22,588 nucleotides of DNA from a virus. The notes below the pieces were generated by a model. It was not told where the DNA came from and ran no database searches. It saw nothing but the letters and a program-made list of their open reading frames with translations. Position 1 is the stretch's first letter. Every line of letters starts with the position of its first letter. The stretch spans positions 1 to 22,588 of IMG/VR virus record IMGVR_UViG_3300020473_001411; one strand, written 5' to 3'. Shown piece by piece: positions 3,526-20,243 of this stretch. A program made the translations under genes and the position numbers.

Positions 3526-5186
3526 GACATAAACTCCGAAAGAGATGAACGAACTTTGGTCTTGTTGAGTTCACTATGAAACGCTTCATGTTTCTTCATG
3601 GAATGTTTAGAACCATCGTATCCTTCCAAATATTTTTCCATCTTCTTTCTTATCTCATCGTTTGGAATAAACAAACGAGTGTGACGAGAGCGTGGGTCAT
3701 CTTTAAGTCCGAACTGCAAACACCATCTGCGAATCGTTTCCCAAGAATTACCACCCTGAGCATCCACCATGATTGGATGAGTTTGATACAGAAAATCTTT
3801 CTTGTATTCCAAGTCATTGAGAATAAAATACAACCAAGGTTTGCAGAAAGAACCTTCTTTGTTTTCCTTGGTTACATTCCAACTGTTTTCCATAGCATTC
3901 ACCAAGTTTCCACGAAATACTTCATCGTGTTTGGGGATTTGATGAGAGAAGTTGTCTGGGAGATTTTGTAGTTTGTGTTGAAAATCATCCTTCGTCTTGA
4001 AATATAAAGGATAATTGTCTCCCAGAACTTCTCTCATCATCGGAGAATCGTAAACAAGAGTTGGAGTTCCTGCAAGGATTGGATCTTGAACTGAAAGATT
4101 CCAAGTTGCATACCCCTTTATCCACGCAACTGAAGCATAAGAGTTTCGCAGAAAATCAGAATATAGTTCATAAGAACCAAGAAGTGATTTTGGAACACCT
4201 TCATATGCATACTTGAATCTTCCTGGCTCAAATACTGACTCTTCGTTAGAATCATTTTCTTCTAGTTCTTCCAAAGAAGCATTCTCAACTGGCGAATATC
4301 CAGACAATGGTTTTTTTACCTTTACATCAGTCACAAAAACTTGATACTCATCTGGAAGTCCTTGCATCATCTTATGCAAACCTCTTGCACCAGTTGTTTC
4401 ATTCCAACGATGATTAAATGCAATCGCTTTGATTCCATCTGGAGCATTCCAGTATTCACCATTTGTCATTGGAAGTTCACGAGCTTTGAGAGGCATCTTT
4501 CCAATCTTACTCATGAGTGCGTTCTCATCTGGAACAAGAACATGAGGTTTCTTCTCAAAGTTAGAGAGAAGATACTTCGTGCTAGCATCAGAATGAAAGA
4601 AGATTTTACTGCACCTGTCAATCGCTTCAAACTGACGAAAGAATGTTGGTGGAAAGGATGGTGCAGGACTTGATGCATTACAATCAACCCAATGAAAGAA
4701 ACACATGGAATCGGTGTTATTCATACCATATCGTAATGATAACAGATTCCACAAAACATTTGTAAGTATCTCTGGTTGATGACAGAAGACAAAATCAATA
4801 TCAATGGATGAAGTGTGAAGTGTTACAAACTCACCAGGGCGAAACTCCACTTTCTGTCTACCAGAAAAGATACGACAAAATGTTTTACCATCAAAGTTAG
4901 CACGATTCTGCATAACGGATTGTGGATACGGAAACGGAATAATGGTTACATTGTCCATAGAATACAATGGGTCTGAAGGAGACAATGTATTCAGTTCAGG
5001 AATCAAGATGTAATGATGACAAATAGGCAGAAAATGAACTGTATCCATCATCACTTTCCAATTTGAGCATCTCTCTACTTCATACTTGCGACCTTTCCAA
5101 CGAACAGGAGAAGCCACGTGTAGAATACGTTTACCAAAGATTGAAACACCAGAATAATCTTTGTGAAATTGTGTCATTTCCATCAT
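3522..5186 (-). CDS. GT-B-like glycosyltransferase inserted between gp44 and gp62
   Basis: This 554-aa protein looks like a two-domain GT-B glycosyltransferase. The N-terminal half has Rossmann-type strands (KRILHVASPVRWKG near residues 19-32, DFVFCHQPEILTN near 131-143, KIFFHSDASTKYL near 194-206). The C-terminal half starts with IAFNHRWNETTGARG (255-269) and has a donor-binding-like stretch, VQDPILAGTPTLVYDSPMM (366-384). An acidic linker lies near residues 301-320. The substrate is unknown; sugars on phage DNA, virion or host surface are possible. It overlaps gp44 by 4 nt and gp62 by 4 nt, so it is embedded in the replisome operon and would be co-expressed with it. The fold assignment is from pattern only. 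Confidence 0.7.
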   Translation of the reverse strand: MMEMTQFHKDYSGVSIFGKRILHVASPVRWKGRKYEVERCSNWKVMMDTVHFLPICHHYILIPELNTLSPSDPLYSMDNVTIIPFPYPQSVMQNRANFDGKTFCRIFSGRQKVEFRPGEFVTLHTSSIDIDFVFCHQPEILTNVLWNLLSLRYGMNNTDSMCFFHWVDCNASSPAPSFPPTFFRQFEAIDRCSKIFFHSDASTKYLLSNFEKKPHVLVPDENALMSKIGKMPLKARELPMTNGEYWNAPDGIKAIAFNHRWNETTGARGLHKMMQGLPDEYQVFVTDVKVKKPLSGYSPVENASLEELEENDSNEESVFEPGRFKYAYEGVPKSLLGSYELYSDFLRNSYASVAWIKGYATWNLSVQDPILAGTPTLVYDSPMMREVLGDNYPLYFKTKDDFQHKLQNLPDNFSHQIPKHDEVFRGNLVNAMENSWNVTKENKEGSFCKPWLYFILNDLEYKKDFLYQTHPIMVDAQGGNSWETIRRWCLQFGLKDDPRSRHTRLFIPNDEIRKKMEKYLEGYDGSKHSMKKHEAFHSELNKTKVRSSLSEFMS

Positions 5187-6124
5187 ACGAACTCACATTC
5201 TGCCATCAACTCAACAAGACAGGCGACAAGGTTAATCTCTTGGTCTGCAACAAAAGCAGATTTATATTGATACTCTGCAATTGTCAGGACCGCTTGTGGA
5301 ATGGAACCTTTATCCACTACATTATATAGCTCATCGTAGATTTTACGATAGACAGTTGCAGGGTCATTATCTACGTTTGCAACAACCCACTGTCTCATCT
5401 TGGAAAAGTTTTTCTCACGCAACGAATCTATCAACTCTCTGAGATTCATTTCCTTGATGTTAGCAAGAACACCAGAATTTATTTCACCAGAAGTTGAGTA
5501 TCTTTGCAACTCGTTTAGCACTCTGCGAAAATCTGGAAAGTGCTTAAGAACAAGTTTTGCAATTACCTCTTTATCGTAATCAATAGATTCATCTGAAAGA
5601 ATACCTTCCACTCTTTTCATGAAACGAGCTGCGATGACTTGTTTCTCTCCATTTTTCAAAGAGAAGTCAATCACAGCACAACGAGAATGAATCGGTTCTA
5701 TGATACGATTTTTGTAATTACAAGTGAAGATAAAAGAACAGTTATCCGCAAATCGTTCTGTGAAGTTTCTCATCGCTGGTTGAACAGAGTCAGCATTCAT
5801 GTAATCTGCTTCGTCTATGATTACAACCTTACGACTACCAGACAATGAGATTGTAGAACAGAATTGTGTCAACTTTGTTCTGAGAGTGTCAATCATTCTA
5901 CCTTCATCAGAACCATTGATGATAAGATAGTCCGCTTGTGTCTCATTACAAATAGCACGAGCAGCAGTTGTTTTACCAATACCAGATGTTCCAGTAAACA
6001 TCATGTTTGGTATTTTGTTTTGACTGACTACATCACGTAAAGTTTTTTTGATTGATTCAGGAAGAATACAATCTTCAATAGTTCTCGGCCGATATTTCTC
6101 GACCCATAACAAAGATTCTGACAT
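5183..6124 (-). CDS. 44: Clamp loader ATPase subunit gp44
   Basis: This AAA+ ATPase drives loading of the gp45 sliding clamp. The sequence opens LWVEKYRPRTIEDCILPE, the standard RFC/gp44 N-terminus. Walker A is GTSGIGKT (residues 45-52), Walker B is VVIIDEAD (100-107), sensor 1 lies near FTCNYKNR (133-140), and the SRC arginine-finger motif is at 147-149. The 313-aa length is close to T4 gp44 (319 aa). A Shine-Dalgarno AAGG lies 7 nt before the ATG, and only 2 nt separate the gene from the clamp stop codon, so 45 and 44 are one transcript. All catalytic residues are present. Confidence 0.97.
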   Translation of the reverse strand: MSESLLWVEKYRPRTIEDCILPESIKKTLRDVVSQNKIPNMMFTGTSGIGKTTAARAICNETQADYLIINGSDEGRMIDTLRTKLTQFCSTISLSGSRKVVIIDEADYMNADSVQPAMRNFTERFADNCSFIFTCNYKNRIIEPIHSRCAVIDFSLKNGEKQVIAARFMKRVEGILSDESIDYDKEVIAKLVLKHFPDFRRVLNELQRYSTSGEINSGVLANIKEMNLRELIDSLREKNFSKMRQWVVANVDNDPATVYRKIYDELYNVVDKGSIPQAVLTIAEYQYKSAFVADQEINLVACLVELMAECEFV

Positions 6125-6126
6125 GA

Positions 6127-6798
6127 TTACCCTTCATATGTGGAGTTCTGCTCGAGAGCAATCCAATATTCAAGGGAATCCGATTTTCTTTTAAAATGTG
6201 ATATTCTTTTAGAAGAAAGTTCTATATCGTAACTTCCTTCCATGACTTTGTTAAGGTTTTCTGTTTTGAAAACCATTCTGAATTTTTTGTCAGTCACTCC
6301 AACTTTGATAGAGAATATATCAGAACTGACATTACCAGTATCAGAAACGACCAAACGAATTGCTGTGCCATCGCCTTCTACCACTATCTCTGGTAAACTA
6401 AGAGTATTGGCTGCATTGACAACTTGTTTGAAGTCATCTGTTTCAAGTGTGAAATTAATTTCCGCCATTGGGAAACTTATCTCCTTTTCTGGTGGAGTTT
6501 GAAACATAGAACTACTTCCACAATACCGATATTCGGCATATCTTTTACCATCTGAAATTTTAACTGAATTTTCACCAAACTCAAGTTCAGGGCTATCAAA
6601 TAAATTGATAGTTCCAAGGAATCTATTCAACTCATAGATTGGAAAATTTCTTGGGAAGTTCTCTGTAATCTTGACAGAGGCTAGAATTGTATTCAAGGGA
6701 GATACAGTTTTGAGTGTATCACCTTCACGAAATTCTAAACTTTGATTGATTGTTGCGTAGTTCTTGAGGAACGTTACTGTACTTTCACTTAATTTCAT
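6127..6798 (-). CDS. 45: DNA polymerase sliding clamp gp45
   Basis: This is the trimeric processivity clamp of T4-like phages. In T4 it also acts in late transcription as a mobile activator that contacts RNA polymerase through gp33 and gp55. The 223-aa length matches T4 gp45 (228 aa). The order clamp, gp44, gp62, regA confirms the assignment, since clamp sequences diverge quickly. The start at 6798 (MKLSESTVTFLKN) is preferred over an upstream frame start at 6810 because GGAG lies 6 nt before it. A sigma70-like promoter (6837..6865) lies just upstream inside the DUF3310-like gene. The TATAAATA late promoter at 14172 implies that the clamp-dependent late system exists in this phage. Confidence 0.93.
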   Translation of the reverse strand: MKLSESTVTFLKNYATINQSLEFREGDTLKTVSPLNTILASVKITENFPRNFPIYELNRFLGTINLFDSPELEFGENSVKISDGKRYAEYRYCGSSSMFQTPPEKEISFPMAEINFTLETDDFKQVVNAANTLSLPEIVVEGDGTAIRLVVSDTGNVSSDIFSIKVGVTDKKFRMVFKTENLNKVMEGSYDIELSSKRISHFKRKSDSLEYWIALEQNSTYEG

Positions 6799-7105
6799 TG
6801 CTATCTCCAATTAGATTATCATGTATGAATAACATTATTATGACATAGTGTGCGATCTTTGTCAAGTCCTTTCTGTTACGACCAGCTTTCTTTCCGTAAC
6901 GTTGTGCGTATTTGATAATATTGCCGATACAGAACCCCTCCCCATGTCCTGCATCAGCGATGAATTCAGTTGATTGTACTCTGTTTTGAGCATAATGAGC
7001 TGTGTATGTAGAATCAATGTGATTCTTCAGTTCTTGAATATATTGATCTTCATCAAATGCATATTCAATTTCGTTTTCTCTTGTTCTTTCTTCTTCGTTT
7101 TTCAT
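6785..7105 (-). CDS. DUF3310-like protein (T7 gp1.7-type)
   Basis: This 106-aa protein has a charged N-terminus and the core FCIGNIIKYAQRYGKKAGRN, followed by KDLTKIAHYVIIMLF. That corresponds to the DUF3310 signature (GNaiKYlxRxGkK...DLxKAxxYl) found in many phages, including T7 gp1.7, which has been reported to be a nucleotide kinase. Activity cannot be inferred from the motif alone, because there is no P-loop. The gene overlaps the end of the glycosyltransferase upstream by 41 nt and the start of the clamp gene by 14 nt. Its 3' part also carries the candidate promoter of the clamp operon. Confidence 0.72.
   Translation of the reverse strand: MKNEEERTRENEIEYAFDEDQYIQELKNHIDSTYTAHYAQNRVQSTEFIADAGHGEGFCIGNIIKYAQRYGKKAGRNRKDLTKIAHYVIIMLFIHDNLIGDSNEIK
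6837..6865 (-). promoter_or_regulatory. Candidate sigma70-type promoter for the clamp operon
   Basis: The minus strand reads TTGACA (6865-6860), 17 nt, then CATAAT (6842-6837). The -35 box is perfect and the -10 box differs at one base. It lies inside the DUF3310-like gene, about 40 nt before the clamp ATG. It lacks the A-tract and the TGTGATG start region of the main promoter family, so it is less certain. Confidence 0.45.
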
Positions 7106-14194: not shown

Positions 14195-14268
14195 TGGCAG
14201 GTCATGTAGGAATCGAACCCACATTGACGGATTTGGAGTCCGTAGTTTTACCATTAAACTAATGACCT
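14195..14268 (-). tRNA. tRNA-Trp (CCA)
   Basis: The acceptor stem AGGTCAT pairs with ATGACCT, with discriminator G and an encoded CCA. The anticodon stem ACGGA/TCCGT encloses the loop CTCCAAA (anticodon CCA). The T-loop TTCGATT is standard. Length is 74 nt. It is last of four tRNAs in the cluster. Confidence 0.95.
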
Positions 14269-14271
14269 GTG

Positions 14272-14347
14272 TGGCTCCCCGAGCTGGACTCGAACCAGCG
14301 ACAAGGTGATTAACAGTCACCCACTCTACCAACTGAGTTATCGGGGA
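14272..14347 (-). tRNA. tRNA-Asn (GTT)
   Basis: The acceptor stem TCCCCGA pairs with TCGGGGA, with discriminator G and an encoded CCA. The anticodon stem GGTGA/TCACC encloses the loop CTGTTAA (anticodon GTT). The T-loop TTCGAGT is standard. Length is 76 nt. Only 3 nt separate it from tRNA-Trp. Confidence 0.96.
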
Positions 14348-14350
14348 TTG

Positions 14351-14426
14351 TGGTGGAGCTGACAAGAATCGAACTTGCTACCTCTTCCGTGCAAGGGAAG
14401 CGCTCTCCCAGATGAGCTACAGCCCC
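14351..14426 (-). tRNA. tRNA-Ala (TGC)
   Basis: The acceptor stem GGGGCTG pairs with CAGCTCC (one G-T pair at position 3), with discriminator A and an encoded CCA. The alanine G3-U70 identity pair is present. The anticodon stem CTTCC/GGAAG encloses the loop CTTGCAC (anticodon TGC). Length is 76 nt. Confidence 0.96.
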
Positions 14427-14427
14427 G

Positions 14428-14503
14428 TGGAGCTACTGATTGGAATCGAACCAACGACCTGAAGTTTACAAAACTCCTGCTCTACCATCTGAGCTACAGT
14501 AGC
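14428..14503 (-). tRNA. tRNA-Thr (TGT)
   Basis: The acceptor stem GCTACTG pairs with CAGTAGC, with discriminator T and an encoded CCA. The anticodon stem GGAGT/ACTTC encloses the loop TTTGTAA (anticodon TGT). The T-loop TTCGATT is standard. Length is 76 nt. It is first of the four-tRNA cluster. Confidence 0.94.
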
Positions 14504-18714: not shown

Positions 18715-18885
18715 TTAAAAAACGTCTGCCCATTGTTTATCAAGAACAAGGTCAAACTGTTTTTGTTTCTCATATTTAGAAATCAAGAATTCCAGCTCTT
18801 CATTACAACCAAGTAAGTAGTCGATTCTTTTTTCGAGTTTAACTATTTTTTGTTTGTCCTGTTTGTGCTGAATTCTTGCTTTCAT
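18715..18885 (-). CDS. Small coiled-coil peptide (56 aa)
   Basis: This 56-aa protein begins MKARIQHKQDKQKIVKLEKR and ends DLVLDKQWADVF. It is a single charged helix with heptad-like spacing (IVKLEKRIDYLLGCNEELEF). Its ATG overlaps the TGA that ends the peroxiredoxin gene (ATGA), so its translation depends on ribosomes that finish that gene, including those that pass the internal UGA. No family is recognised. Confidence 0.6.
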   Translation of the reverse strand: MKARIQHKQDKQKIVKLEKRIDYLLGCNEELEFLISKYEKQKQFDLVLDKQWADVF

Positions 18886-19367
18886 AACGAGTTTAATAGA
18901 TTTTCTGGTTTAGTGATCTCATAGGGATCATCATCAAGTCCCATTTGATTTATGCCGTCTTCACGCCATAATTTTTCTACTTCCATGTCATTGATTACCA
19001 TAGCATATCTCCAACTACGATAACCAAAGTTTTGTGCTGGTTTCCAAACCAACATATTCATGTCTCTGGTGAATTCTCCACTACCATCGGGAATCATCTT
19101 GACATTTTCTATTTCATGTTTTTCTGCCCATGCATTCATCACAAATGAATCGTTGACAGAAAGACAATACACCTCATCTAAACCCTTTGACTTGAAATCG
19201 TCATACAATGCTTCCAGCCCTGGAAGTTGCATCTCGCTTCATATGGGTGTAAATGCTCCTGGCAGAGATACGACCAATGACCTCTTACCAGCAAAATACT
19301 GATGTGCAGTATGAATTTTCCAATCATTATTGACTCTAACTTTCCAGTTAGTATTAGGCACTTTCAT
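18882..19367 (-). CDS. Putative selenocysteine peroxiredoxin (Prx5-like), in-frame UGA at the catalytic site
   Basis: Read through one UGA (19241-19239, codon 43) this is a complete 161-aa Prx5-type peroxiredoxin, which reduces peroxides with thiol donors such as glutaredoxin. The active-site motif PxxxTxxC reads PGAFTPI-U-SEMQLPG, so the UGA takes exactly the place of the peroxidatic Cys. Downstream landmarks are intact: VYCLSVNDSFVMNAWAEKH, MIPDGSGEFTRDM and FGYRSWRYAMVIND with the conserved Arg (117, 120). A SECIS-like hairpin follows the UGA. The start at 19367 (MKVPNTNWKV) has AAGGAGG before it and overlaps the glutaredoxin gene by 14 nt. The gene ends at a normal TGA, so UGA also means stop here. 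Alternatives are a nonsense-mutated Cys gene or a sequencing error; position, hairpin and intact reading frame argue against both. Confidence 0.85.
19203..19232 (-). promoter_or_regulatory. Bacterial SECIS-like hairpin after the UGA
   Basis: On the minus strand, ATGCAA pairs with TTGTAT (one G-U pair), then CTTCCA pairs with TGGAAG, with a 2-nt CA bulge on the 3' side and the tetraloop GGGC. The loop starts 18 nt after the UGA, the same distance as GGUC in the E. coli fdhF SECIS. Two leading G in a short apical loop are the SelB-recognised feature. The leader bases up to the loop are also coding. Confidence 0.7.
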
Positions 19368-19623
19368 CTTCTTCTTCCTCCTTATCAAGAAAGTGTTGTA
19401 ACATACCCTTGTAATCTCCAACAAACTCGCCTTTGATGACGATTTGTGGAACTGATGTTGATTTAGTTTCCTTCATCAACGAACCAAAGAACATCTTGTC
19501 AGCATTGATGACCGAATACTTCAATCCCTTCTCATCAAGATATTCTTTTGCTTTGTCACACCATTGACAATCTGGAATAGATTGGTGACGGATAATGACA
19601 TTTCCTTTTAGGTCTATATTCAT
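19354..19623 (-). CDS. grx: Glutaredoxin
   Basis: This 89-aa protein has the thioredoxin-fold glutaredoxin layout. CQWC (residues 19-22) is the dithiol active site after strand NVIIRHQSIPD. The cis-proline loop is STSVPQIVIKGEFVGDY, and a helix with an acidic tail (LDKEEEEDESA) ends the protein. It reduces disulfides with glutathione and is the usual reductant of Prx5-type peroxiredoxins; in some bacteria the two are one fused protein. Its end overlaps the peroxiredoxin start by 14 nt, and the shared stretch includes the ribosome site AAGGAGG. The likely job is to recycle the selenoperoxiredoxin. T4-like phages also use glutaredoxins with ribonucleotide reductase, which remains possible. Confidence 0.93.
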   Translation of the reverse strand: MNIDLKGNVIIRHQSIPDCQWCDKAKEYLDEKGLKYSVINADKMFFGSLMKETKSTSVPQIVIKGEFVGDYKGMLQHFLDKEEEEDESA

Positions 19624-20164: not shown

Positions 20165-20243
20165 TGGTCTGGGTGAAAGGATTTGAACCTCCGAAACCTC
20201 TTGCTCCCAAAGCAAGCGCTCTACCTGACTGAGCTACACCCAG
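20165..20243 (-). tRNA. tRNA-Pro (TGG)
   Basis: The acceptor stem CTGGGTG pairs with CACCCAG, with discriminator A and an encoded CCA. The anticodon stem CTTGC/GCAAG encloses the loop TTTGGGA (anticodon TGG, with G37 as in Pro tRNAs). The T-stem has two G-T pairs. Length is 79 nt. It lies 5 nt before tRNA-Tyr. Confidence 0.92.

Follow-up and report, generated by a model that had tools for sequence, protein, structure and literature searches.

The question raised by this locus is whether a phage gene interrupted by a single in-frame stop codon is broken, divided in two or read through as a selenoprotein. The window, by which we mean the whole stretch of 22,588 nucleotides analysed (positions 1 to 22,588 of IMG/VR record IMGVR_UViG_3300020473_001411), contains two open frames in the same phase separated by one TGA, and an initial annotation, made from the sequence alone, had proposed that together they encode a peroxiredoxin (Prx) with selenocysteine (Sec) at its catalytic position. 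Sec-containing Prx is itself known in bacteria. As far as the accessible portions of the GOS surveys go, Prx is among the commonest selenoproteins (PMC9402790, PMC2398784), making up 7.1% of the 4324 GOS selenoprotein genes (PMC9402790); the same portions, and those accessible of PMC5029168, make no mention of phage selenoproteins. In the literature searched, which was open-access and hence only part of the whole, we came across no previous description of a phage selenoprotein.

Joined across the TGA, the two frames do give a full Prx5-type protein (Table 1), the translation of which has only one internal stop, the UGA of codon 43 in the motif PGAFTPI(UGA)S. With Cys put at this position (U43), the protein matches the Pfam Redoxin family (PF08534, 2.6e-24) and PHROG 2281 "peroxyredoxin antioxidant" (3.7e-65). 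The position is the catalytic one, as first claimed: in the best solved relative (1.2e-36), the H. influenzae Prx5-glutaredoxin hybrid HI0572 (PDB 1NM3), the residue opposite U43 is the active-site Cys of the motif PGAFTPTCS. The Redoxin fold signature, the PxxxTxxC/U motif and the conserved catalytic Arg region expected of a Prx5-type protein are all present, and P36, T40, C/U43, R117 and R120 are invariant. HI0572 also resembles the window in coupling its Prx5 domain to a glutaredoxin (Grx), but it is a single fused chain with Cys, whereas here there are two overlapping genes, one with UGA: an intact Grx ORF shares 14 bp with the start of the Prx gene. This overlap, the ribosome site and the terminal TGA shared with the next start are all as the initial annotation had described them. 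Grx adjoins the UGA-Prx in most of the window-like members whose flank is available, and it also lies beside the Prx of the nearest Cys relative (L129). The attribution to a T4-like phage holds as well, the window carrying T4-type clamp loader and sliding clamp genes with PHROG matches; the nearest known records of the contig are Pelagibacter phage Mosig and cyanomyophages. The PHROG 2281 proteins of cyanomyophages and of Pelagibacter phage HTVC008M are homologous to the window Prx and about 50-56% identical to it.

Table 1. Features of the window that bear on the interrupted peroxiredoxin gene (all on the minus strand)
Feature	Position	Strand	Basis or remark
Peroxiredoxin gene, Prx5-type, in-frame UGA at codon 43	18882..19367	-	161 residues with UGA read as Sec
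Proposed selenocysteine codon, UGA at the peroxidatic-cysteine codon	19239..19241	-	Conserved in relatives, Cys codon in other homologues
bSECIS-like RNA hairpin 3' of the UGA	19203..19232	-	Folds and synonymous-shuffle test
Hairpin core stem	19221-19226 with 19211-19216	-
Hairpin tetraloop GGGC	19217-19220	-	nt +19 to +22 after the UGA
Glutaredoxin gene	19354..19623	-	Pfam PF00462, 1.5e-12; adjacency and co-transfer
Shine-Dalgarno AAGGAGG of the peroxiredoxin gene	19377..19383	-	Sequence
Terminating TGA of the peroxiredoxin gene (18882-18884), within ATGA shared with the ATG of the next gene	18882..18885	-	Sequence
T4-type clamp loader	5183-6124	-	PHROG 168, 8.7e-123
Sliding clamp	6127-6810	-	PHROG 223, 2.8e-61
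Clamp loader and sliding clamp region	5183..6810	-	Marks the contig as a T4-like marine phage

An in-frame stop could be the mark of a decaying gene, by nonsense mutation or by assembly error, and one-base changes that turn TGC or TGT into TGA are, in principle, common. The initial annotation considered a chance hit on this codon unlikely; it expected Cys or U at residue 43 of homologues and the same UGA in related phage contigs, and named other disabling mutations in homologues as evidence to the contrary. Its expectations are borne out. In a protein search, the matches spanning residue 43 have UGA there in all nine independent viral-contig relatives of 87-99% identity and Cys in five viral-contig relatives at about 53%. 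Viral contigs were also scanned at the DNA level with a degenerate pattern of the UGA-bearing motif, which by design favours UGA. This found 30 contigs, all of them with Prx5 genes whose frame is open on both sides; they reduce to 24 distinct sequences, each open beyond the UGA, in three groups: a (window-like, SEMQLPGLE), b (TKQHLPRLE, SNRQLPSLE) and c (STQQVPQFEW). The proteins of groups a and b are only 56-60% identical. Over 134 distinct homologues, codon 43 is TGA (50), TGT (61) or TGC (23) and never anything else, and it is TGA in 15 out of 15 of those at least 65% identical to the window gene, so that an in-frame UGA aligns with the catalytic Cys of homologues, as in a selenoprotein. 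No other disabling mutation was present in any relative examined. With the same UGA recurring in many metagenomes, in three phage groups and in two bacterial chromosomal contigs, decay or misassembly is already refuted by conservation. Two of the UGA genes (L018 and L041) also have a C-terminal extension of about 60 residues that is absent from the others.

Sec insertion in bacteria is directed by an RNA structure, the bSECIS; that of E. coli fdhF is a hairpin directly 3' of the UGA with the loop AGGUCU. Zhang and Gladyshev are reported to have set the criterion in 2005: a stem-loop immediately after the UGA, its apical loop being small, G-bearing and some 16-37 nt from the codon. Just 3' of codon 43, the stem C-U-U-C-C-A / loop / U-G-G-A-A-G spans +13 to +28 nt after the UGA and places a small G-bearing loop within that distance. 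As in fdhF, the hairpin stands directly 3' of the UGA, and in phages L005, L007, L018, L029 and L040 the AGGUCU loop is identical, with GGUC at +19 to +22. In contrast to fdhF, the 5' side carries no bulged U, and the loop of the window group is AGGGCU, without the GU of fdhF. No SECIS match was obtained from Rfam.

The hairpin belongs to the UGA genes. Its six stem pairs score 135 over the 24 distinct UGA genes, against a mean of 86.5 and a maximum of 99.5 in 300 synonymous shuffles, while the same pairs in 70 Cys genes score 220.5 against a shuffle mean of 208.1 and maximum of 227; likewise, the fold z is -2.08 for the UGA genes versus -0.06 for the Cys genes (Mann-Whitney p ~3e-9), relatedness among the sequences inflating both statistics. 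By the synonymous shuffles, the structure is thus conserved beyond the needs of the protein. Among the Cys homologues from viral contigs, those examined use TGT or TGC at this codon and, unlike the window gene, have no hairpin. Groups a and b, for all their divergence, nevertheless have the same synonymous choices frozen: Leu CTT, Pro CCA, Leu YTG and Glu GAA (except where Glu is Asp). In L005 and the SAR324 copies described below, an Asp GAT disrupts the outer pairs and AGC/GCU pairs form outside them instead; at this site group c forms another hairpin, one that has a bulged U. Strict covariation is weak, with one pair changed on both sides, because the stem is nearly invariant. Dinucleotide shuffles alone, applied to single folds, give z values from -2.35 (window) to +0.85 (a SAR324 copy).

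The UGA-motif pattern was also run against 84,980 species genomes, where it found two phage-type UGA genes, the rest being a distant chromosomal Sec-Prx clade, mostly of Alphaproteobacteria, and chance matches. One phage-type gene (L046) is on a 16-kb contig of the SAR324 single-cell genome AG-404-P05 and the other (L054) on a contig from a Legionellales-labelled MAG. Both have the Grx and UGA-Prx genes, with 75-81% DNA identity to the window-like phages over about 735 bp; for 4.5 kb the contigs run colinear with each other at 86.6%, and over its second half L046 matches further SAR324 genomes (about 65-85%). The SAR324 contig is not that of an infecting phage: its iron ABC transporter, SCO1 and molybdenum dehydrogenase genes are chromosomal. 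Nor is it a single-cell chimera, which is excluded by the 4.5 kb of colinearity with L054. The Legionellales label is probably a misbinning; that MAG has neither SelB nor SelD over the cut-off and no SelA match.

SAR324 bacteria, on the other hand, use Sec. Over the curated cut-offs, SelB is found in 31 of 31 SAR324-family genomes, SelA in 26 and SelD in 27, and ARAGORN calls a tRNA-SeC in the single-cell genome carrying the gene; neither SelA nor SelD is detectable in that carrier genome, which we put down to its incompleteness. The search for selA, selB, selC and selD proposed by the initial annotation thus has a positive outcome in SAR324 as a plausible host group. Loops were compared with those of selD because the formate dehydrogenases of SAR324 are without Sec; the SAR324 selD genes themselves contain UGA, and in those read the stem-loop has GGUC at +18 to +21. 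No phage contig, all of them fragments, has a tRNA-Sec over the cut-off, and the phages appear to depend on their host for the Sec machinery. Where ARAGORN was run, most of the sub-threshold tRNA-Sec matches in phage contigs coincided with ordinary tRNAs.

Could a near-cognate or altered tRNA misread the UGA as Cys, Trp or another of the ordinary amino acids? One base separates it from the Cys codons, and tRNAs can be supplied by the phage itself, the window carrying several; but the window tRNA-Trp has the ordinary anticodon, CCA, a hairpin limited to UGA genes would have no role, and the same UGA and hairpin are kept in SAR324, with its Sec genes. Moreover, UGA terminates this very ORF and 21 of the 45 ORFs taken as window genes. 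Misreading seems to us very improbable, and a split gene more improbable still. The latter would consist of a 42-residue leader ending at the UGA and a 116-residue protein, functional or not, started three codons on, where the window group indeed has an ATG (19230-19232). That ATG is absent, however, from groups b and c and from L018 (SSQQLPGLE), the N-terminal landmarks as far as the UGA are conserved in all the UGA groups, and the peroxidatic residue would have been lost in every lineage though the remainder stays constrained. Since UGA also ends this ORF and so many others in the window, any recoding at codon 43 is context-dependent, and with this dependence, a hairpin confined to UGA genes and a carrier that uses Sec, the insertion of Sec under the direction of SelB is better supported than misreading, a split gene or decay.

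We therefore prefer, among these explanations, SelB-directed insertion, and put at about 0.92 the probability that the phage gene encodes a selenoprotein, a Prx5-type, glutaredoxin-linked peroxiredoxin with Sec as its peroxidatic residue that is read by the SelB of the host. The likely selenoprotein of the initial annotation has gained the support of a bSECIS-like hairpin and of the same gene pair in the chromosome of a Sec-using bacterium; actual Sec insertion at residue 43 we infer from these sequence comparisons. Host SelB, guided by the hairpin, would bring Sec-tRNA(Sec) to the ribosome for insertion at UGA-43, and the terminal UGA, which has no hairpin, would still terminate. The selenolate would then reduce peroxides and be regenerated by the glutaredoxin of the overlapping upstream gene, the likely electron donor, presumably to the benefit of the phage under oxidative stress.

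Where such a gene came from is suggested by the phylogeny. The phage UGA clade is nested in phage Cys-Prx, apart from bacterial Sec-Prx, and the SAR324 copies are nested in turn within it (support 98/97). The AU test rejects (p=0.0017) a topology in which the phage UGA genes form one clade to the exclusion of SAR324, and the transfer was therefore most likely from phage to SAR324, with the Grx gene a likely part of the same transferred pair. The tree also suggests an independent origin for the UGA of group c; a single UGA clade including group c is not rejected (AU p=0.19). We consider it probable, if with distinctly less assurance than the selenoprotein itself, that phages evolved a selenoprotein at least once and perhaps twice (groups a and b; group c), a Cys codon becoming UGA along with a SECIS for the SelB of the host, and then donated the gene to a SAR324 bacterium; viruses could, in other words, both create and spread selenoprotein genes. 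The Cys-to-Sec change would have taken place inside the phage lineage, starting from a Cys-Prx widespread among marine T4-like phages, with the chromosomal transfer of the Grx-SecPrx pair coming later. Cys versions near the phage family also occur in bacterial genomes or bins (L121 and L125 in G055; L101 in G002), which suggests further phage-to-bacterium transfers of the peroxiredoxin gene.

Judging by the shared gene, SAR324 bacteria are probably the host of these phages; we know of no phage isolate for this group. The selenoprotein could be real and the host another Sec-using marine bacterium, SAR324 having received the gene by illegitimate transfer only: the pair is in just one of the 31 SAR324-family genomes, and the nearest cultured phages infect Pelagibacter and Synechococcus. 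We regard this as unlikely, though a good deal less so than misreading or a split gene. Apart from the contig colinear with that of SAR324, the 84,980 species genomes hold a phage-type UGA gene in no other group, the GGUC loop is the same as in SAR324 SelD, and the transfer into a SAR324 chromosome implies that phage DNA entered such cells.

Bacterial Sec-Prx, in the accessible portions of the reports on it, likewise has UGA at the active-site Cys and a downstream hairpin (PMC9402790, PMC2398784, PMC5029168), and chromosomal relatives of the phage gene occur in Reyranella and other Alphaproteobacteria. The window gene differs from these in being phage-encoded, in its separate clade within phage Cys-Prx and in that no tRNA-Sec of its own was seen. 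If our reading is correct, some of the ocean Sec-Prx genes counted in metagenome surveys would be viral, and standard gene calling would split such genes in two at the UGA. The phages would depend on the selenium supply of their host and be tied to Sec-using hosts such as SAR324. It would also show directly that a selenoprotein can originate in a virus and its gene then pass to a cell.

Some minor observations may be added. In Reyranella and related Alphaproteobacteria (L056, L057, L062, L069, L078), a Sec-Prx5 gene and a Cys paralogue lie inside the same 8 kb. In a noisy scan of phage contigs for further UGA/Cys sites, no second sense-strand candidate stood out in the window among the matches listed. 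The window has a tRNA cluster (Trp-Asn-Ala-Thr, 14195-14503) and a separate tRNA-Pro (20165-20243), sets that differ in relatives. Finally, close to the Grx-Prx pair, a small protein encoded at 20362-20730 matches PHROG 7851 "cysteine dioxygenase" and is possibly the product of a second sulfur or redox gene.
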